Assembly: GCF_001654865.1 (NCBI RefSeq)
Contig: NZ_LXEO01000068.1
Coordinates: 1-64,000, forward strand
DNA: 64,000 bases
Direction: 5' to 3'
DNA from: Buttiauxella noackiae ATCC 51607
Lineage (GTDB): Bacteria > Pseudomonadota > Gammaproteobacteria > Enterobacterales > Enterobacteriaceae
The notes under the pieces were generated by a model. That model worked only from the letters and a program-made list of their open reading frames with translations, did no database searches and was not told the DNA's origin. This document shows positions 3,291 to 57,869 of the stretch, in pieces (the first letter of the stretch is position 1; each line of letters begins with the position of its first letter). Made by a program: the position numbers and the translations under genes.

Positions 3291-3464
3291 ATGATAAATT
3301 TCTTCAGGAAGTTTTCAGCCCGTGTCGACTATGGTGAACAGGAACTCTGTGGAGAGCAACTCCTGCTGAACGTTGCTGAATATCAAGAATACCTTTTGTG
3401 CGAAGCACCATTTTACCCAACCATAAACCAGGATCTGCTAGCTGATCCCTCATCAGCAAATTAA
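3291..3464 (+). CDS. Small hypothetical ORF (57 aa), doubtful
   Basis: An open frame starts at ATG 3291 (MINFFRKFSARV...) and ends at TAA 3464. There is no clear ribosome site, and an in-frame stop lies 15 bases upstream. The translation is acidic and Tyr/Leu rich with no family I recognise. It could be the remnant of a longer gene in this tRNA-adjacent accessory region, or chance. Confidence 0.25.
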   Translation: MINFFRKFSARVDYGEQELCGEQLLLNVAEYQEYLLCEAPFYPTINQDLLADPSSAN

Positions 3465-3481
3465 TTCATAGAGATATTGTC

Positions 3482-3652
3482 ATGAAGACTGTCGCTATTG
3501 AGACGAATATTACTGCAGGAAAACCACTTTGCTGGATCCTTTGGCGACGTCGTTATCAGAATAAACAGGCATCAATTGCATGTATTGAAGGAACCCGTGG
3601 TTGTCGGCCATATATATGTACTACTTCTATCAGATTAAAGATTATTAGCTAA
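3482..3652 (+). CDS. Small hypothetical ORF (56 aa), doubtful
   Basis: The frame runs from ATG 3482 (MKTVAIETNITAGKP...) to TAA 3652, with a weak GAGATAT upstream. The product is basic and contains four cysteines spread along its length. I do not recognise it. It lies between the previous small ORF and the degenerate tRNA copy, so it may be leftover island sequence. Confidence 0.25.
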   Translation: MKTVAIETNITAGKPLCWILWRRRYQNKQASIACIEGTRGCRPYICTTSIRLKIIS

Positions 3653-3700
3653 ATCCAGGTTTAGGTGAGGCTTTACGCTGCCAGTATTCAGTTATCTAAA

Positions 3701-3752
3701 AGCAAAAACCAGCTCGTAGGCTGGTTTCTTTAAATAGTGGTGCCGGACTTGG
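3701..3752 (-). repeat. Degenerate second copy of the tRNA-Phe 3' end with terminator
   Basis: This block parallels 3865-3920. Both have AGCAAAAA, then a terminator-like hairpin (here AACCAGC and GCTGGTT arms), then AAATAGTGGTG followed by the complement of the tRNA acceptor end. Here TGCCGGACTTGGA replaces the functional TGCCCGGACTCGGA. The rest of a tRNA is absent. It is either the relic of a deleted tandem tRNA-Phe or an att-type duplication left by an integrated element. Confidence 0.65.
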
Positions 3753-3753
3753 A

Positions 3754-3864
3754 CTAAAAACGTCGGGAACGTTTTTGAACAGCGCTTGCGCTGGCCCGCA
3801 GGGCGAGTCGCAGGGAGGCGACGAGTCATCGAACGAAGTTCGATGAAGAATCCAAATCTCCAAT
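3754..3864 (-). repeat. Hairpin cluster with the CAGCGC palindrome module
   Basis: Read on the minus strand, the palindrome CAGCGCAAGCGCTG (3780-3793) is followed by a hairpin with arms AAAAACGT (3756-3763) and ACGTTTTT (3769-3776). Further stems lie at the other side: TCATCGAAC/GTTCGATGA near 3826-3846 and GTCGC/GCGAC near 3807-3822. The same palindrome-plus-hairpin unit is found inside two ERIC elements at 9335-9376 and 12994-13038. Confidence 0.7.
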
Positions 3865-3867
3865 AGC

Positions 3868-3893
3868 AAAAAACCCGCCATAGGCGGGTTCTT
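3868..3893 (-). terminator. Rho-independent terminator of tRNA-Phe
   Basis: On the minus strand AACCCGCC and GGCGGGTT form the stem, and a run of six T follows. It lies 9 bases past the tRNA 3' end. Confidence 0.85.
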
Positions 3894-3901
3894 CTAAATA
3901 G

Positions 3902-3977
3902 TGGTGCCCGGACTCGGAATCGAACCAAGGACACGGGGATTTTCAATCCCCTGCTCTACCGACTGAGCTATCCGGGC
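3902..3977 (-). tRNA. pheV: tRNA-Phe (anticodon GAA)
   Basis: A 76-nt tRNA with encoded CCA. On the minus strand it begins GCCCGGATAGCTCAG, has the anticodon loop ATTGAAAATC (GAA), the T-loop GGTTCGATTCC and the end GTCCGGGCACCA. Its place next to speC matches pheV of E. coli, a frequent integration site for genomic islands. Confidence 0.97.
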
Positions 3978-3987
3978 AACGGGGCGC

Positions 3988-4016
3988 ATTAAACCGTAAA
4001 GGCCGTTTGGCGTCAA
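3988..4016 (-). promoter_or_regulatory. Promoter of tRNA-Phe
   Basis: On the minus strand the -35 element TTGACG (4016-4011) is separated by 17 bases from the -10 element TTTAAT (3993-3988). A GC-rich stretch (GCGCCCC) follows, typical of stringently controlled stable-RNA promoters. Confidence 0.8.
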
Positions 4017-4102
4017 CGGTTTTGTGTTAATAAGCCGTGCGTTTGCACGAATAATGTGCTCCAGGTAACAGCGCTGTCTTGAACCACAGGTCAGAAGGTG
4101 CC

Positions 4103-4147
4103 ATGATTGCGCGAAATTTCACACATCTGAAACGGGACGCTTATTGA
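4103..4147 (+). CDS. Possible 14-codon leader peptide upstream of speC
   Basis: ATG at 4103 opens MIARNFTHLKRDAY and stops at 4147, with AGAAGGTG as a plausible ribosome site just upstream. It lies 266 bases before speC and ahead of the large hairpin at 4259. Short leader peptides that sense ornithine control the related speF gene in E. coli (speFL); this one is not similar in sequence that I can see. It is listed as a candidate only. Confidence 0.3.
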   Translation: MIARNFTHLKRDAY

Positions 4148-4258
4148 TGTTTATAGTCACTGTTTACCGACATCTTTCGACAGCGCTCGTTCACCTTTCT
4201 GCACTCACCCGAAGACCCTTGCACACCATGCGGTGAGGACAACGCACGCTCGCTGTAG

Positions 4259-9216: not shown

Positions 9217-9403
9217 TACCCGTCATATTTCAAGTTGCAGGAGTGCTGGCTGCACTCAAAAATCCCGGTCACTCACTTTAGTAAGTTCCGGGAGATTTGT
9301 ATTCTGCCGCGTTACTCGGCGTAGCCTCGCCCCAAGGGACCAGCGCAAGCGCTGCTCAAAAGGCTGAAGCCTTTTGTCCTGCAACTTAAATTATTCTGGG
9401 TAT
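9217..9403. repeat. ERIC element with internal insert, copy 1
   Basis: It begins TACCCGTCATATTTCAAGTT and ends TTATTCTGGGTA, the terminal inverted repeats of ERIC. The core CCGGTCACTCACTTTAGTAAG resembles the ERIC centre. At about 187 bases it is longer than the usual 127 because of an insert in the right half. That insert contains CAGCGCAAGCGCTG (9341-9354) and a hairpin CAAAAGGCT/AGCCTTTTG (9357-9376). It lies between mltC and yggX. Confidence 0.85.
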
Positions 9404-9427
9404 ATAAGGGTGAGTGACCCTGTATTT

Positions 9428-12885: not shown

Positions 12886-13082
12886 TACCCGTCATACTTC
12901 AAGCTGCAGGGGTGTTGGCTGCACTCACTCACCCCAGTCACTTACTAAAGTAAGCTCCTGGGGATTATGAGCCTCGTCCATGAGGCTCACACTTCGGGCC
13001 AGCGCAAGCGCTGTTCAAATCTGTTCCTGACAGATTTGTCCCTCCCTTGCCGCCTACCTGCAACTCGAATTATTTAGGGTAT
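12886..13082. repeat. ERIC element with internal insert, copy 3, at a synteny junction
   Basis: It runs from TACCCGTCATACTTCAAGCT to TTATTTAGGGTAT, about 197 bases. The core CCCCAGTCACTTACTAAAG is a near-consensus ERIC. The insert holds a stem TGAGCCTC/GAGGCTCA (12968-12989), the palindrome CAGCGCAAGCGCTG (13000-13013) and a hairpin CAAATCTGT/ACAGATTTG (13016-13038). It lies between convergent yggN and leuD, genes far apart in E. coli. Confidence 0.9.
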
Positions 13083-13122
13083 TAAATTGTGGGTGAAGTT
13101 TGGGCTTCACCCGCCATGATAC

Positions 13123-13728
13123 TTAACGCATAAACGCCGGTTGTTTCTGCTCGTAAGCAGAAATAGAACCTTCGTGTTGCAGCGTCAGGCCGATACTATC
13201 CAGCCCTTCTAACATGCAGTGGCGGCGGAAAGTATCGATATTAAATGAATAGCTTTTCTCACCCGCAATCACGGTTTGCGCTTCCAGATCGACTACAAAC
13301 TTAATCCCTGGATTTGCTGCAACCAGTTTGAACAGCTCATCGACTTCTTCTTCGCTCAACGTCACTGGCAGCAGCTGGTTGTTGAATGAGTTACCGTAGA
13401 AAATATCTGCAAAGCTTGGTGCGATAACCACTTTAAAACCGTAATCGGTTAAAGCCCACGGAGCGTGTTCACGTGAAGAGCCACAGCCGAAGTTTTCACG
13501 CGCCAGCAAAATAGAGGCACCTTTAAACTCCGGGAAGTTCAGCACGAACTCAGGGTTTGGCTTTTGCCCTGCATCATCCAGGAAACGCCAGTCGTTAAAC
13601 AAATGAGCGCCAAAACCGGTGCGTGTGACTTTCTGCAAAAACTGCTTAGGAATAATTGCGTCGGTATCAACGTTTGCGGCATCCAGCGGAACGACCAGGC
13701 CGGTATGTTGGATAAATTTCTCTGCCAT
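13123..13728 (-). CDS. leuD: 3-isopropylmalate dehydratase small subunit
   Basis: 201 residues. With LeuC it isomerises 2-isopropylmalate to 3-isopropylmalate in leucine synthesis. The family block [20 protein letters not shown] is present, as is [14 protein letters not shown] near the N-terminus. It is the last gene of leuABCD, 11 bases after leuC. An ERIC element lies between its end and yggN. No clear terminator is seen apart from the ERIC structure. Confidence 0.97.
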
Positions 13729-17807: not shown

Positions 17808-17850
17808 GTTGTGGTCCTTTCTCGTCTTAGGGGCCCTTGCTACGAGCATA

Positions 17851-17880
17851 AAAAAACCCGCGCAGTGGCGCGGGTTTTTT
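17851..17880 (-). terminator. leu operon attenuator
   Basis: On the minus strand AAAAAACCCGCGCCAC pairs with GCGCGGGTTTTTT, forming a GC-rich stem and a T-run. It lies between leuL and leuA. In the E. coli leu operon the same layout terminates transcription when charged tRNA-Leu is plentiful. Confidence 0.92.
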
Positions 17881-17897
17881 CTGTCTGATGGCTTGAA

Positions 17898-17981
17898 TCA
17901 ACGTTCGATTTCGCCCACCAGCCTACCGCGCAAAGAAGTTGCGTTTAGTAGTAGACCTAGTAGGCGAATGGTGCGAATCAT
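17898..17981 (-). CDS. leuL: leu operon leader peptide
   Basis: 27 residues, MIRTIRLLGLLLNATSLRGR followed by LVGEIER, found by hand because it is short. Five of its leucines are encoded by the rare codon CTA in a tight group (two, then Gly, then three). Ribosome stalling on these when Leu-tRNA is scarce would prevent the attenuator at 17851-17880 from forming. E. coli LeuL has four consecutive CTA codons as I recall it. The LNA-T/S-SLRGR part is conserved. Confidence 0.93.
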   Translation of the reverse strand: MIRTIRLLGLLLNATSLRGRLVGEIER

Positions 17982-18016
17982 GTTTTCAAGCCCCAAGTGA
18001 ATTCGTTATGCATTTA

Positions 18017-38343: not shown

Positions 38344-39600
38344 ATGATCAAGGCGACGGACAGAAAACTGGTAGTAGGACTGGAGATCGGTACCGCAAAG
38401 GTTGCCGCTTTAGTAGGGGAAGTTCTGCCTGACGGTATGGTCAATATTATTGGCGTGGGCAGTTGCCCATCGCGTGGTATGGACAAGGGTGGCGTAAACG
38501 ATCTTGAGTCAGTCGTTAAATGCGTTCAACGTGCGATAGACCAAGCCGAGTTGATGGCTGATTGCCAGATATCCTCGGTCTACCTTGCGCTGTCAGGTAA
38601 GCATATTAGCTGTCAAAATGAGATTGGTATGGTGCCAATCTCTGAAGAAGAAGTGACACAGGAAGACGTTGAGAACGTTGTTCACACCGCAAAGTCGGTG
38701 CGCGTACGTGACGAACATCGTGTTTTGCATGTAATCCCGCAAGAATACGCGATTGACTACCAGGAAGGCATCAAAAATCCTGTAGGTTTATCGGGTGTAC
38801 GTATGCAGGCTAAAGTGCACTTGATTACTTGCCACAACGATATGGCTAAAAACATCGTCAAAGCTGTTGAACGATGTGGTCTCAAAGTTGACCAACTGAT
38901 TTTTGCAGGTCTTGCAGCAAGCTATGCAGTATTGACCGAAGATGAACGTGAATTAGGGGTCTGCGTAGTAGATGTCGGTGGTGGTACTATGGACATCGCG
39001 GTTTACACTGGCGGCGCACTGCGCCACACCAAAGTTATCCCTTATGCAGGGAATGTGGTGACCAGCGATATCGCATATGCTTTCGGCACCCCACCGAGTG
39101 ATGCTGAAGCCATTAAAGTGCGCCATGGGTGCGCGCTGGGTTCGATAGTTGGTAAAGACGAAAACGTTGAAGTGCCAAGCGTAGGTGGACGTCCACCGCG
39201 TAGCTTACAACGCCAGACGCTCGCTGAAGTCATCGAGCCTCGTTATACCGAGCTGTTGAACCTGGTAAACGAAGAGATTTTGCAGTTACAAGAACAACTT
39301 CGCCAGCAAGGTGTAAAGCACCACCTGGCCGCGGGGATTGTTTTGACAGGCGGTGCCGCGCAAATTGAAGGCCTGGCAGCCTGTGCGCAACGGGTGTTCC
39401 ATACTCAAGTACGTATAGGACAACCGCTAAATATTACAGGTCTGACTGATTATGCCCAGGAGTCTTATTACTCCACAGCAGTCGGCTTGCTGCACTACGG
39501 GAAAGAAACTCATCTCAGTGGTGAAGCAGAAGTGGAAAAACGAACCTCTGTCGGCTCATGGATTAAGCGAATCAACAGCTGGCTGAGAAAAGAGTTTTAA
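38344..39600 (+). CDS. ftsA: Cell division protein FtsA
   Basis: 418 residues, two fewer than E. coli. An actin-like ATPase that tethers FtsZ to the membrane. Nucleotide-binding signatures: GLEIGTAKVAALVGE and VVDVGGGTMDIAVYTGG. The C-terminal amphipathic membrane helix is SWIKRINSWLRKEF. A 63-base gap with a good ribosome site (GGAGA) precedes ftsZ. Confidence 0.98.
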   Translation: MIKATDRKLVVGLEIGTAKVAALVGEVLPDGMVNIIGVGSCPSRGMDKGGVNDLESVVKCVQRAIDQAELMADCQISSVYLALSGKHISCQNEIGMVPISEEEVTQEDVENVVHTAKSVRVRDEHRVLHVIPQEYAIDYQEGIKNPVGLSGVRMQAKVHLITCHNDMAKNIVKAVERCGLKVDQLIFAGLAASYAVLTEDERELGVCVVDVGGGTMDIAVYTGGALRHTKVIPYAGNVVTSDIAYAFGTPPSDAEAIKVRHGCALGSIVGKDENVEVPSVGGRPPRSLQRQTLAEVIEPRYTELLNLVNEEILQLQEQLRQQGVKHHLAAGIVLTGGAAQIEGLAACAQRVFHTQVRIGQPLNITGLTDYAQESYYSTAVGLLHYGKETHLSGEAEVEKRTSVGSWIKRINSWLRKEF

Positions 39601-39663
39601 TTTTTATAAGAGACCAGACAAAATTAGCGGTCTCAGGCGACAGGCACAAAACGGAGAGAAACT

Positions 39664-40815
39664 ATGTTTGAACCTATGGAACTGACCAACGACGCGGTGA
39701 TTAAAGTCATCGGCGTCGGTGGTGGCGGCGGTAATGCCGTTGAACACATGGTGCGTGAACGCATCGAAGGTGTTGAATTCTTTGCAGTGAATACTGATGC
39801 TCAAGCGTTACGTAAAACTGCTGTAGGCCAGACTATCCAGATTGGTAATGGTATTACCAAAGGTCTGGGTGCTGGAGCGAACCCTGAGGTGGGTCGTACC
39901 GCTGCGGAAGAAGATCGCGATGCGTTACGTGCGGCCCTTGAAGGCGCAGACATGGTATTTATCGCTGCAGGTATGGGTGGTGGTACAGGTACAGGTGCTG
40001 CACCTGTAGTGGCAGAAGTGGCCAAAGATCTAGGTATCCTGACCGTCGCTGTTGTGACTAAGCCTTTCAACTTTGAAGGCAAGAAGCGCATGGCATTCGC
40101 GGAGCAGGGTATTGCTGAGCTCTCTAAGCATGTCGACTCCTTGATCACCATCCCTAACGACAAATTATTGAAAGTGCTGGGTCGTGGTATTTCTTTGCTT
40201 GACGCTTTTGGCGCAGCAAACGATGTGCTTAAAGGCGCAGTGCAAGGTATCGCAGAACTGATTACTCGTCCGGGTCTGATGAACGTCGACTTTGCTGACG
40301 TGCGTACCGTAATGTCCGAAATGGGTTATGCCATGATGGGCTCTGGTGTTGCAAGTGGCGAAGACCGTGCTGAAGAAGCGGCAGAAATGGCGATTTCCAG
40401 CCCACTGTTGGAAGACATCGATCTGTCCGGCGCTCGTGGCGTTCTGGTCAACATCACCGCTGGCTTCGACCTGCGTCTGGATGAGTTCGAAACTGTGGGT
40501 AACACCATTCGTGCGTTCGCATCTGATAACGCGACTGTGGTTATCGGTACTTCTCTGGACCCAGAGATGAACGACGAACTGCGTGTAACTGTTGTTGCAA
40601 CCGGTATTGGCATGGACAAACGTCCAGAAATTACCCTTGTGACCAACAAACAGACTCAGCAGCCAGTTATGGATCGCTACCAGCAACACGGTATGGCCCC
40701 GCTTCAGCAAGAGCAGAAGCCTGCTGCCAAGGTAGTTAATGACAATACGCCACAAACGACGAAAGAGCCTGATTATCTGGATATTCCAGCGTTTTTGCGC
40801 AAGCAAGCTGATTAA
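39664..40815 (+). CDS. ftsZ: Cell division GTPase FtsZ
   Basis: 383 residues, the E. coli length. Tubulin homologue forming the Z ring. Tubulin signature GGGTGTG at residues 105-111; T7-loop block [15 protein letters not shown]. The conserved C-terminal peptide [14 protein letters not shown], which binds FtsA, ZipA and ZapD, is intact. zapD is present in this window at 46324. Confidence 0.99.
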
Positions 40816-42960: not shown

Positions 42961-45666
42961 ATGCTAATCAAATTATTAACAAAAGTTTTCGGTAGCCGTA
43001 ACGACCGCACCCTGCGCCGTATGCGTAAAGTTGTAAACCTTATCAATGCTATGGAACCGGAAATTGAAAAACTTTCCGATGATGAACTAAAAGCAAAAAC
43101 TGGCGAATTCCGTGCGCGTCTTGAGAAAGGCGAAGTGCTGGAGAATCTGATTCCGGAAGCTTTTGCTGTTGTTCGTGAAGCGAGTAAACGTGTATTTGGC
43201 ATGCGCCACTTCGATGTACAGTTGCTCGGCGGTATGGTTCTGAATGAGCGTTGTATCGCAGAGATGCGTACTGGTGAAGGTAAAACACTGACTGCAACTC
43301 TGCCTGCATACCTGAATGCATTAAGCGGCCGTGGTGTTCACGTTGTTACAGTGAACGACTATCTGGCCCAGCGTGATGCTGAAAACAACCGTCCTTTATT
43401 CGAATACCTTGGCTTGAGTGTTGGCATCAACTTGCCAAACATGCCGGCACCTGCAAAGCGCGAAGCTTATGCAGCGGACATCACTTACGGCACCAACAAC
43501 GAATACGGCTTTGACTACCTGCGCGACAACATGGCGTTCAGTCCTGAAGAACGCGTTCAGCGCAAACTGCACTACGCATTGGTGGATGAGGTTGACTCAA
43601 TTCTTATCGATGAAGCGCGTACACCGCTTATCATCTCCGGTCCAGCTGAAGACAGCTCCGAGATGTACCGCAAAGTAAACAAAATCATCCCGAGCCTGAT
43701 CCGTCAGGAAAAAGAAGATTCTGATACTTTCCAGGGCGAAGGCCACTTCTCGGTGGATGAAAAATCTCGTCAGGTAAACATTACTGAACGTGGTCTGGTA
43801 CTGGTTGAAGAGTTGCTGGTTCAGGAAGGCATTATGGAAGAAGGCGAGTCTTTGTACTCCCCAACTAACATTATGCTGATGCACCACGTGACTGCTGCAC
43901 TGCGTGCGCATGTGCTGTTCACCCGTGACGTTGACTATATTGTTAAAGATGGTGAAGTCATCATCGTCGATGAACATACCGGTCGTACCATGCAAGGCCG
44001 CCGTTGGTCTGATGGCTTGCACCAGGCTGTCGAAGCTAAAGAAGGCGTCGATATACAGAACGAAAACCAGACGCTGGCATCCATCACCTTCCAGAACTAC
44101 TTCCGTCTGTATGAAAAACTGGCGGGTATGACGGGTACTGCGGATACCGAAGCGTTCGAATTCAGCTCTATCTACAAGCTCGATACCATCGTTGTGCCAA
44201 CTAACCGCCCAATGATTCGTAAAGACATGCCTGATCTGGTCTACATGACCGAACTGGATAAAATCGGCGCGATTATCGAAGACATCAAAGAACGTACCAC
44301 TAACGGTCAGCCAGTCCTGGTGGGTACTATCTCCATCGAGAAATCCGAAGTTGTCTCTGCTGAGTTGACTAAAGCGGGTATTAAACACAACGTTCTGAAC
44401 GCCAAGTTCCACGCTAACGAAGCGGGTATCGTTGCTCAGGCCGGTTACCCAGCCGCCGTGACCATCGCAACCAACATGGCAGGCCGTGGTACGGATATCG
44501 TATTGGGTGGTAGCTGGCAGGCAGAAGTTGCTGAGCTTGAAAACCCAACCCCTGAGCAAATCGCGCAGATTAAAGCTGACTGGCAAGTTCGTCATGATGC
44601 GGTTCTGGCATCGGGTGGCTTGCACATCATTGGTACTGAGCGTCACGAATCTCGCCGTATCGATAACCAGCTCCGTGGCCGTTCCGGTCGTCAGGGTGAT
44701 GCGGGTTCATCTCGCTTCTACCTGTCTATGGAAGACTCACTGATGCGTATTTTCGCATCGGATCGTGTTTCAGGCATGATGCGTAAACTCGGTATGAAAC
44801 CGGGCGAAGCGATTGAACACCCATGGGTTACTAAGGCAATTGCTAACGCCCAGCGTAAAGTTGAAAGCCGTAACTTCGATATTCGTAAACAGCTTCTGGA
44901 ATACGATGATGTGGCCAACGATCAGCGTCGTGCGATCTACAGCCAGCGTAACGAATTGCTGGATGTGAGCGACGTTAGCGAAACCATCAATAGCATCCGC
45001 GAAGACGTCTTTAAAGTGACTATTGACGCACACATTCCACCGCAATCACTGGAAGAAATGTGGGATGTCGAAGGTCTGGAAGAGCGTCTGAAAAACGACT
45101 TTGATCTTGAGCTGCCAATTAAAGAGTGGCTGGATAAAGAGCCGGAGCTGCATGAAGAAACACTGCGTGAGCGTATTTTGCAAAACGCTATCGAAGTGTA
45201 TCAGCGCAAAGAAGAAGTGGTTGGTGTTGAAATGATGCGTCACTTCGAAAAAGGCGTCATGTTGCAGACTCTGGATTCACTGTGGAAAGAGCACCTTGCA
45301 GCAATGGATTATCTACGCCAGGGTATCCACTTGCGTGGTTATGCGCAAAAAGATCCTAAGCAAGAATACAAGCGTGAGTCTTTCGCCATGTTTGCATCAA
45401 TGCTTGAAGCGCTGAAATATGAAGTGATCAGTACGCTGAGTAAGGTACAGGTTCGTATGCCTGAAGAAGTTGAGGCAATGGAACAGCAGCGCCGTGAAGA
45501 AGCTGAGCGCCTGGCACAGATGCAACAGCTGAGCCACCAGGATGACGAAACACTGGCTGCAGAATCATTGGCAGCAGAAACGGGTGAGCGCAAAGTGGGT
45601 CGTAACGATCCGTGCCCATGCGGTTCTGGTAAGAAATTCAAACAGTGTCATGGCCGTTTAAGCTAA
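42961..45666 (+). CDS. secA: Preprotein translocase ATPase SecA
   Basis: 901 residues, the E. coli length. Motor of the Sec pathway. Walker [12 protein letters not shown] (near residue 102), DEAD-type Walker [17 protein letters not shown] (near 205), helicase motif [14 protein letters not shown]. The C-terminal zinc/SecB-binding motif is [13 protein letters not shown]. Translation is controlled by secM 68 bases upstream. A strong terminator follows. Confidence 0.99.
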
Positions 45667-45682
45667 GAACGTAATTGTCGAT

Positions 45683-45710
45683 AAAGGCGCAGCTTGCTGC
45701 GCCTTTTTTC
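45683..45710 (+). terminator. secA terminator
   Basis: AAAGGCGCAG pairs with CTGCGCCTTT around CTTG, ending in six T. mutT starts 20 bases later. Confidence 0.9.
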
Positions 45711-47862: not shown

Positions 47863-47909
47863 AGAGCCATTAATAGTGCGTATGATAACGTCACTGGAAT
47901 TGGTAGTTG

Positions 47910-48032
47910 TACCCGTCATACTTCAAGCCGCAGATGCGTTGGCCGCACTCACAAACCCCAGTCACTTACTCAAGTAAGCTCCCGGGGATTTACTCCCTTG
48001 CCGCCTTTCTGCCACTCGAATTATTCAGGGTA
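47910..48032. repeat. ERIC element, copy 4 (standard length)
   Basis: About 123 bases from TACCCGTCATACTTCAAGCC to TTATTCAGGGTAT, with the near-consensus core CCCCAGTCACTTACTCAAGT then AAGCTCCCGGGGATT. It ends 55 bases before the guaC start, so it lies in or next to the guaC promoter and leader. Confidence 0.92.
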
Positions 48033-57600: not shown

Positions 57601-57670
57601 GAACCCGAAATTTCTGGTTCTTTTAAGCGCCACTATTTAGAGCGCGGCAACTAAACGCAGAACCTGTCTT

Positions 57671-57818
57671 ATTGTGCTTTGTGTTGCCCAAATAGTTCAG
57701 GGTGTATCGCGGCGGCAAGCGCGCGAATCCTCAGGAGCATAGCTAACTATGTGAGTGGGATGAGGAAGCGCAGCCAACAAAGAGACAACCCGAAATATGA
57801 AGGGCAAAAAGCACAATG
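57671..57818. repeat. ERIC-type element in the pdhR-aceE gap, copy 5, inverted orientation
   Basis: CGGCGGCAAGCGCGCGAATC, then CTCAGGAGCATAGCTAACTA, then GCAGCCAACAAAGAG and GAAATATGAAGGGC read as an ERIC in the opposite orientation to the other four. The flanks add an outer inverted repeat (TTGTGCTTT and AAAAAGCACAA with GCCC/GGGC), so the whole segment can fold into one long hairpin. It would be transcribed in the pdhR-aceE message. Confidence 0.75.
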
Positions 57819-57869
57819 GGACAGGTTCCAGATAATCAACGTATTAGACACAGATAAGGAATACCACCC

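Follow-up and report, generated by a model that had tools for sequence, protein, structure and literature searches.

A hairpin chain probably of the TLR family is shared by a tRNA-Phe flank and ERIC insertions in Buttiauxella noackiae

The 64,000-nucleotide stretch of Buttiauxella noackiae ATCC 51607 analysed in this study (contig NZ_LXEO01000068.1; hereafter the window) contains three copies of one chain of four hairpins, H1-H2-H3-H4, joined by conserved linkers. All three copies probably carry the chain of the TLR (tRNA-linked repeat) family, whose members include rrA/rrB/rrF and the tyrT RtT of E. coli, and the two copies within ERIC elements would be TLR chains that were captured by ERIC and spread with it. 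A single structural family across different contexts, its covariation, its orientation, the junction areas, one empty site and a strand bias of GGA loops were observed directly. We infer that the descent was from TLR to ERIC and not the reverse, and a role of CsrA at any window copy can be suggested on the same indirect footing.

The initial annotation had described a module made of a palindrome, a TTC or CTC linker and a hairpin, located at the following three places:

3780-3793, minus strand: palindrome of copy 1, followed by TTC and the arms AAAAACGT/ACGTTTTT
9341-9354, plus strand: palindrome of copy 2, followed by CTC and the arms AAAAGGCT/AGCCTTTT
13000-13013, plus strand: palindrome of copy 3, followed by TTC and the arms AAATCTGT/ACAGATTT

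The three positions were confirmed, as was the statement that two copies (9341 and 13000) lie in ERIC elements and one (3756-3793) lies outside them, behind tRNA-Phe. The palindrome 14-mer with up to 2 mismatches gave 9 matches, counted on both strands because it is a near-palindrome, against 1.07 expected, and none of 100 shuffles reached 9, so the 14-mer is not due to chance. Exact copies of the 14-mer number 8 in the genome (6 within ERIC and 2 behind tRNA-Phe genes), and 23 of 60 genomes, own genome included, contain it; the reversed control was found neither in this genome nor in any of the 60. The common unit of the 8 exact copies is composed of H1, a CTC-like linker, H2, the H3 palindrome, TTC or CTC, H4 and, in most cases, GTC. 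Palindrome, linker and hairpin are thus shared as proposed, but the unit is larger, with H1 and H2 preceding the palindrome and GTC usually following H4. The strand opposite to that used in the initial annotation, on which the order is H4-GAA-H3-H2-H1 as in E. coli TLRs, is termed the R-strand in the following.

Further copies were collected with the exact 21-mer CAGCGCAAGCGCTGTTCAAAA or with models grown from it, and other alleles are therefore under-sampled. The 21-mer was present in at least 117 stretches of named genomes, the matches listed including Pectobacterium, Serratia, Klebsiella, Citrobacter, Buttiauxella, Yersinia, Cedecea and others. Covariance model R1 was built from 63 copies, and R2 from a more varied alignment of 58 rows (A4), which contained no named E. 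coli record and included a locus that matches Rfam RtT (L150). In its own genome, R1 gave 16 matches at E up to 0.1, one of which (L137) showed no clear chain, and it matched at least 26 of 60 genomes of the family, own genome included, with at least 88 matches in one of them. R2 matched 33 of 99 genomes of the order, spread over 12 families, under stricter filters and with rough E-values, several of these families resting on one or few weak matches; the chain was present at all ten R2 loci that were viewed, which came from four families besides that of the window. The covariance-model search proposed in the initial annotation thus returned many further copies with compensatory changes. Several other contexts were noted. 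The chain also lies behind 5S rRNA in further families of the order, with an apparent copy of the 5S 3' end (L232 1-224; L227 1501-1563), and three chains in a row follow 5S on the rRNA strand at L228 1175-1814. In the own genome, three copies (L132-L134, about 1501-1565) occupy the tip of a long palindromic repeat in intergenic DNA, whose outer arms, judged by eye, differ by a paired change between L133 and L134. Two chains beside tRNA-Pro on a metagenome-assembled contig labelled Arenicella (L011 7678-7811) reflect either contamination or a wide range. A guess from seven equal scores that the copies of genome G035 lie near rRNA operons was not borne out at the two loci viewed, L140 and L141, which have no Rfam rRNA within about 1 kb.

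Pairing in the stems of the chain is maintained although their letters, the loops and the lengths vary. In alignment A2, 92.7% of the cells were paired and 78 were changed on both sides, against 23.6 +- 3.7 in shuffled alignments (0 of 500 shuffles); in A4, which was fitted to the structure, 95.2% were paired and 131 were changed on both sides, against 39.2 +- 5.3 (0 of 500 shuffles). Both sets of shuffles ignore kinship, and with this limit the two comparisons bear out the compensatory changes claimed in the initial annotation. The rows of A2 were picked by a regular expression that fixed the outer AAA/TTT, so those pairs are uninformative, and further pair types did not exceed the shuffles, 63 and 233 of 500 reaching the observed count in A2 and A4. 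The two-sided changes of A4 affected four of the five H3 pairs and four of the seven H4 pairs. At H4 pair 58-77, CG occurred 20 times, AU 14, UA 13 and GC 4, with one unpaired case and no wobble. The covariation score was 0.39, against at most 0.08 in slid controls. The hairpin parser failed on 1 of 197 copies and misread H1 in some ERIC copies; when duplicates were dropped, 189 and 191 copies were left, and 36 H3 and 66 H4 arm pairs were parsed in the 189. In view of the changes in H3, the palindrome was rejected as a conserved element. It is shared by the three window copies, as the initial annotation had stated, but H3 is merely the commonest allele and covaries in wider samples; its constancy in the first sets arose because it had served as the search seed.

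The copy behind tRNA-Phe has the plan of a TLR, namely a copy of the tRNA 3' end and two terminators, with the chain inverted. The features of this locus, those marked as predicted being partly derived from folding, are as follows:

3902-3977, minus strand: tRNA-Phe gene (GAA), by ARAGORN and Rfam tRNA
3866-3892, minus strand: first terminator (T1) of tRNA-Phe, a CCCGCC/GGCGGG hairpin and T run, from sequence and predicted fold
3848-3858, minus strand: 5' arm able to pair with the tRNA-end copy, outer TLR helix, predicted fold
3827-3845, minus strand: extra hairpin CATCGAAC/GTTCGATG ahead of the chain, from sequence and predicted fold
3807-3822, minus strand: H1, GTCGC ctccct GCGAC, with AGGGAG as plus-strand loop, from sequence, parsing and predicted fold
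3794-3804, minus strand: H2, GCCC tgc GGGC, from sequence, parsing and predicted fold
3780-3793, minus strand: H3, CAGCGC aa GCGCTG, the palindrome of the initial annotation, from sequence and parsing
3756-3776, minus strand: H4, AAAAACGT tcccg ACGTTTTT, from sequence and parsing
3732-3755, minus strand: degenerate duplicate of the tRNA-Phe 3' end plus the following bases, by eye
3700-3731, minus strand: second terminator (T2), beyond the tRNA-end copy, from sequence and predicted fold

R1 matched 3753-3815 on the minus strand with 65.2 bits, this copy being itself part of R1. PMC8144298, which cites Egan and Landy (1978) and Rudd (1999) for these repeats, reports 22 TLRs in E. coli, the sRNAs RrA, RrB and RrF among them, together with a copy of 18-19 bp from the 3' end of the upstream stable RNA. 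Consistent with this description, 3732-3858 lies directly downstream of tRNA-Phe, and 3732-3755 corresponds to the 18-19 nt copy in imperfect form, differing by eye from the tRNA-Phe end at few bases; an exact copy follows the second tRNA-Phe gene of the genome (L208). The two ERIC copies differ from E. coli TLRs in that they adjoin no stable RNA and no end copy. The orientation at tRNA-Phe also differs, because the window chain reads as R1 on the tRNA strand whereas the R-strand is the sense strand in rrnB and RtT; its direction is opposite to that of the rrnB chain and of the RtT repeats at the Tyr, Lys, Ser and Arg genes (the Pro repeat reaching only E 0.7). The inverted order was also found behind tRNA-Phe in B. 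izardii (L020), B. warmboldiae (L021) and Enterobacter (L112) and behind 5S in L228. Among 11 sister species, the full unit is present at the orthologous tRNA-Phe site in one (G004), its start is present and broken off within H1 in four (G002, G006, G007 and G008), and it is absent from five (G001, G003, G009, G010 and G011), the contig of G005 ending there. A search of E. coli with the 201-base Phe unit gave matches in 337 of 5426 genomes, with no place covering 80% of the query, and the best 10 of the 337 were confined to 3700-3759 (the tRNA-end copy and T2) or less. In three sisters (L199, L202 and L203), the bases behind tRNA-Phe run, by eye, into an apparent integrase gene start, so this tRNA gene may possibly also serve as an island integration site in sister species.

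The relation to the TLR family was further supported by the model searches. R2 found the spacer between rrnB T1 and T2 of E. coli K-12, which encodes the sRNA RrB and was not part of the model, with 47.6 bits and E 4.4e-11. It also found, weakly, six RtT repeats of the own genome at tRNA-Arg, -Ser (three), -Lys and -Tyr, with E 1.4e-4 to 0.007 and with the R-strand as the RtT strand each time; the tRNA-Pro repeat (L162) reached only E 0.7 and L164 was not matched. Since R2 at E 0.007 also matches L228 on the opposite strand, the weak RtT matches are unsafe when taken singly. In the other direction, Rfam RtT (RF00391) covers the chain of L150 on the R-strand with 56.6 bits (cut-off 45) and gives 8 matches in the own genome at E up to 0.1, of which 4 are above the cut-off, adjoining tRNA-Tyr, Lys, Pro, Ser and Arg genes. 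Judged by eye, the repeats at L160-L163 and L165 end in a copy of the neighbouring tRNA 3' end. Three of these loci (L160, L161 and L165) have CGAGTC or CGAGTAA behind H1, complementary to the TTACTCG found ahead of H1 in numerous ERIC inserts. At L163 (363-1160), three RtT-type repeats surround two tRNA-Ser genes, with a chain unlike the others. The structure model of RtT is not a simple chain. Moreover, Rfam RtT matched nothing in the window at its cut-off, nothing within 3400-4200 even at E 5, and nothing in L001-L005, and this failure at the tRNA-Phe copy and L001-L005 counts against the assignment to the TLR family. The Rfam family AaHKsRNA22 (RF02902, Aggregatibacter), which agrees in hairpin and linker order on the R-strand, looks like the same chain: L145 alone passes its cut-off, narrowly (40.4 against 39.8, R-strand), and three ERIC inserts of the own genome match on the R-strand below it, at E 2e-4 to 7e-4. 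Against this stands its match to M. jannaschii (14 controls) at E up to 1, E. coli being unmatched at that level. RtT RNAs of Actinobacillus were seen on Northern blots, according to PMC4986893.

ERIC elements have inverted-repeat ends, a length of about 127 bp, insertion at TA and a long stem. The two elements of the window that carry the chain, both longer than 127 bp owing to the insert, and their surroundings are as follows:

9217-9404, plus strand: ERIC with captured chain, just upstream of mltC, from sequence, sister-site comparison and predicted fold
9318-9378, plus strand: chain in the mltC ERIC, R1 match of 60.8 bits (copy included in R1), with H3 at 9341-9354 and H4 at 9358-9375
12886-13083, plus strand: chain-bearing ERIC, about 40 bases downstream of the leuD stop codon, from sequence, site comparison and predicted fold
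12968-13041, plus strand: chain in the leuD-side ERIC, R1 match of 62.6 bits (copy included in R1)
12968-12989, 13000-13013 and 13017-13037, plus strand: H1, H3 and H4 of the leuD-side chain, H1 by eye because the parser misread it
13123-13728, minus strand: leuD

The assignment to ERIC relies on the empty sister site for the first element and on sequence and predicted fold for the second. Interrupted ERICs (ERIC / IRU elements) were reportedly described by Cromie and colleagues in 1997; the two window elements are alike in having both ERIC ends, and they differ in that a TLR-type chain is recognised as the interrupting sequence. The left part of another ERIC-like element lies at 47907-47991, where R1 gave no match.

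At mltC, the sole site tested for TA, the TA junction was seen, and all 11 sister species have a clean site. The empty-site check suggested in the initial annotation thus revealed that ERIC and chain are absent together, which argues that the composite moved there as a unit. The yggN-leuD site carries a plain ERIC in 7 of the 11 sisters and none in 4. The ERIC at 12886-13083 agrees with composites elsewhere at up to 78 of 81 left and 41 of 41 right positions, against at most 73 of 81 and 35 of 38 for the plain ERICs of the same site; two composites of G010 are no nearer, at 71 and 69 of 81. Since some composites elsewhere resemble the window ERIC more closely than do the plain ERICs of its own site, insertion or conversion of a composite appears more likely here than landing of a chain in a resident ERIC. 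When copies were tabulated by their position relative to ERIC, as the initial annotation had also recommended, 139 of 191 distinct copies touched an ERIC and 52 had no ERIC match at the thresholds used. Of the ERIC-associated copies, 135 had one orientation and 4 the other. The downstream junction of the 135, rounded to 5, lay at ERIC position 100-110 in 103 copies, 80-90 in 8 and 40-45 in 20, and was unplaced in 4; the upstream ERIC match often ends at 80, and some junctions are thus blurred or deletion-bearing. Folding prediction for one plain ERIC of 125 bp placed internal loops nearby, at 97-98, 79-82 and 44-46, so the chain junctions would lie near internal loops of the ERIC hairpin. Independent movement of the module, which the initial annotation had raised, holds in part: the presence of the chain in ERIC, beside tRNA and 5S rRNA, in another intergenic repeat and at several ERIC junctions indicates that it was copied independently of ERIC at some time, but joint absence at mltC and the resemblance of the ERIC at 12886-13083 to composites elsewhere do not show such movement at the two ERIC sites.

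On the basis of these data, the history of the chain may be outlined as follows. The native chain would sit between the two terminators of a tRNA or 5S rRNA operon, would be transcribed by read-through, and would show GGA, a CsrA-type motif, in two hairpin loops of its R-strand. The tRNA-Phe copy of the window would be a TLR with an inverted chain and GGA loops antisense to the tRNA. In ERIC, TLR chains would then have come to lie close to internal loops of the hairpin, with an almost uniform orientation, after which ERIC and chain would have spread as a composite, with stems kept complementary as letters, loops and lengths changed. The inversion at tRNA-Phe and at the L228 5S speaks against the TLR assignment, since a strand-specific RNA function would not tolerate it. 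TLRs, RtT and interrupted ERICs are each known singly, and we found no paper that joins the TLR chain to ERIC insertions. Titles and abstract openings, which cover few of the subscription papers, held no link between TLR and ERIC and nothing useful on ERIC with insertions, and the word ERIC does not occur in the accessible part of PMC8144298.

GGA loops were counted in distinct copies with the closing pair included and with near-identical copies of one genus retained. Outside ERIC, the H4 loop carried GGA on the R-strand in 37 of 54 copies and on the other strand in none, and the H1 loop in 34 of 52 and in one. Within ERIC, GGA was rarer (H4 29 of 135 and H1 34 of 131 on the R-strand; 2 and 0 on the other strand). 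The one-strandedness outside ERIC suggests that the R-strand was the original RNA and that CsrA was its partner. Such binding has been measured for RrB, which is transcribed, binds Hfq and CsrA, and loses CsrA affinity when three GGA are changed (PMC8144298). In the same source, the 19 TLRs of tRNA operons score below 0.01 as CsrA binders, which counts against this interpretation, and deletion phenotypes are modest. In the window, the 13000 copy has both GGA loops on the leuD strand (H1 ATGGAC, H4 CAGGA), the 9341 copy has GGA in H1 or H4 on neither strand, and the copy at 3756-3822 carries both antisense to tRNA-Phe. It is tempting, with considerable doubt, to propose that a CsrA-binding pair of hairpins was taken up by ERIC from stable-RNA operons and brought into 3' UTRs. 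Some composites, such as that at leuD, would then act as dispersed CsrA sites or decoys, and in other copies the GGA loops would be lost and only the stems retained.

A further intergenic repeat, recognised by pattern scan, has the chain beside hairpins whose R-strand loops read AUGGAY, AGGGAY or similar (L145 981-1160, L033, L034, L064, L066, L100, L116, L140-L142, L144, L147, L149 and L156); it looks like a CsrA-type element and is multicopy in some genomes. Relative to genes chosen by crude ORF picking, the R-strand agreed at 9 of 13 loci with the 5' gene, which is not significant, and two of the 13 (L062 and L072) are tandem chains and not this repeat. The TwoAYGGAY RNA (RF01731), proposed to bind CsrA in PMC4333381, has GGA loops and directly adjoins the chain on the R-strand in L145 with a match above cut-off; the own genome gave no match, and control searches were likewise silent. 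Other Rfam matches in the window were PssrA (39580-39672), STnc40 (45642-45709), tp2 (57631-57865) and the leucine leader (17850-17996).

The pairing of the stems might also be kept by mutation and not by selection, through replication template switching in quasipalindromes, which compensates in one step and needs no RNA function in the ERIC copies. This is a possible explanation, well short of a probable one. In H3 and H4 of A4, a structure-fitted alignment, 120 two-sided cells stood against only 2 one-sided wobble pairs, the mismatches of all hairpins together showed no strand bias (GT 48, AC 46), the ERIC copies remain paired where GGA loops are rarer, and either orientation of the chain occurs behind stable RNAs. 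However, the three linkers (CTC, TTC and GTC) and a large part of the outer H4 stem are fixed across genera, partly by seed and regular expression, which correction alone does not predict, and the GGA loops outside ERIC are one-stranded. The mismatches of H3 and H4 (GT 10, AC 25; one-sided p 0.008) also fit wobble pairs on the R-strand, while those of H1, the least surely parsed hairpin, lean the opposite way (GT 31, AC 15). Two controls accompany these counts: 74 terminator-like hairpins gave GT 19 and AC 12 (one-sided p 0.14), a control that is impure because shuffled sequence yielded 16 such hairpins, and a small sample of tRNA acceptor stems gave 3 against 2.

That the chain is instead a self-moving target at the DNA level, a single-strand hairpin for a transposase or recombinase, seems unlikely. 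Its occurrence in several unrelated contexts, its inversion at tRNA-Phe and the several junction areas within ERIC would suit such an element, but no empty site lacking the chain alone was found, ERIC and chain being missing together at mltC in all 11 sisters, and the filled ERIC at yggN resembles some composites elsewhere. It is highly improbable that the hairpins are ordinary intrinsic terminators, alike by function, an outcome that the initial annotation had set against its own proposal. The A-rich and T-rich arms of H4 and the terminators adjoining the chain in TLRs recall such structures, but the T tract lies inside the H4 stem and is followed by GTC rather than by a T run, four successive hairpins with like linkers recur at loci of several families, and the chain at tRNA-Phe has a separate terminator on either side.

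To our knowledge, TLRs are without a settled function. The assignment of the window copies to this family, which we consider probable, links the rrnB T1-T2 spacer, the tyrT RtT RNA, Aggregatibacter sRNA 22 and the ERIC insertions, which have hitherto been filed apart. In addition, it would provide the TLRs with dozens of natural stem variants and with an inverted natural control, and would make it testable whether covariation is proof of RNA function or the product of hairpin-correcting mutation.
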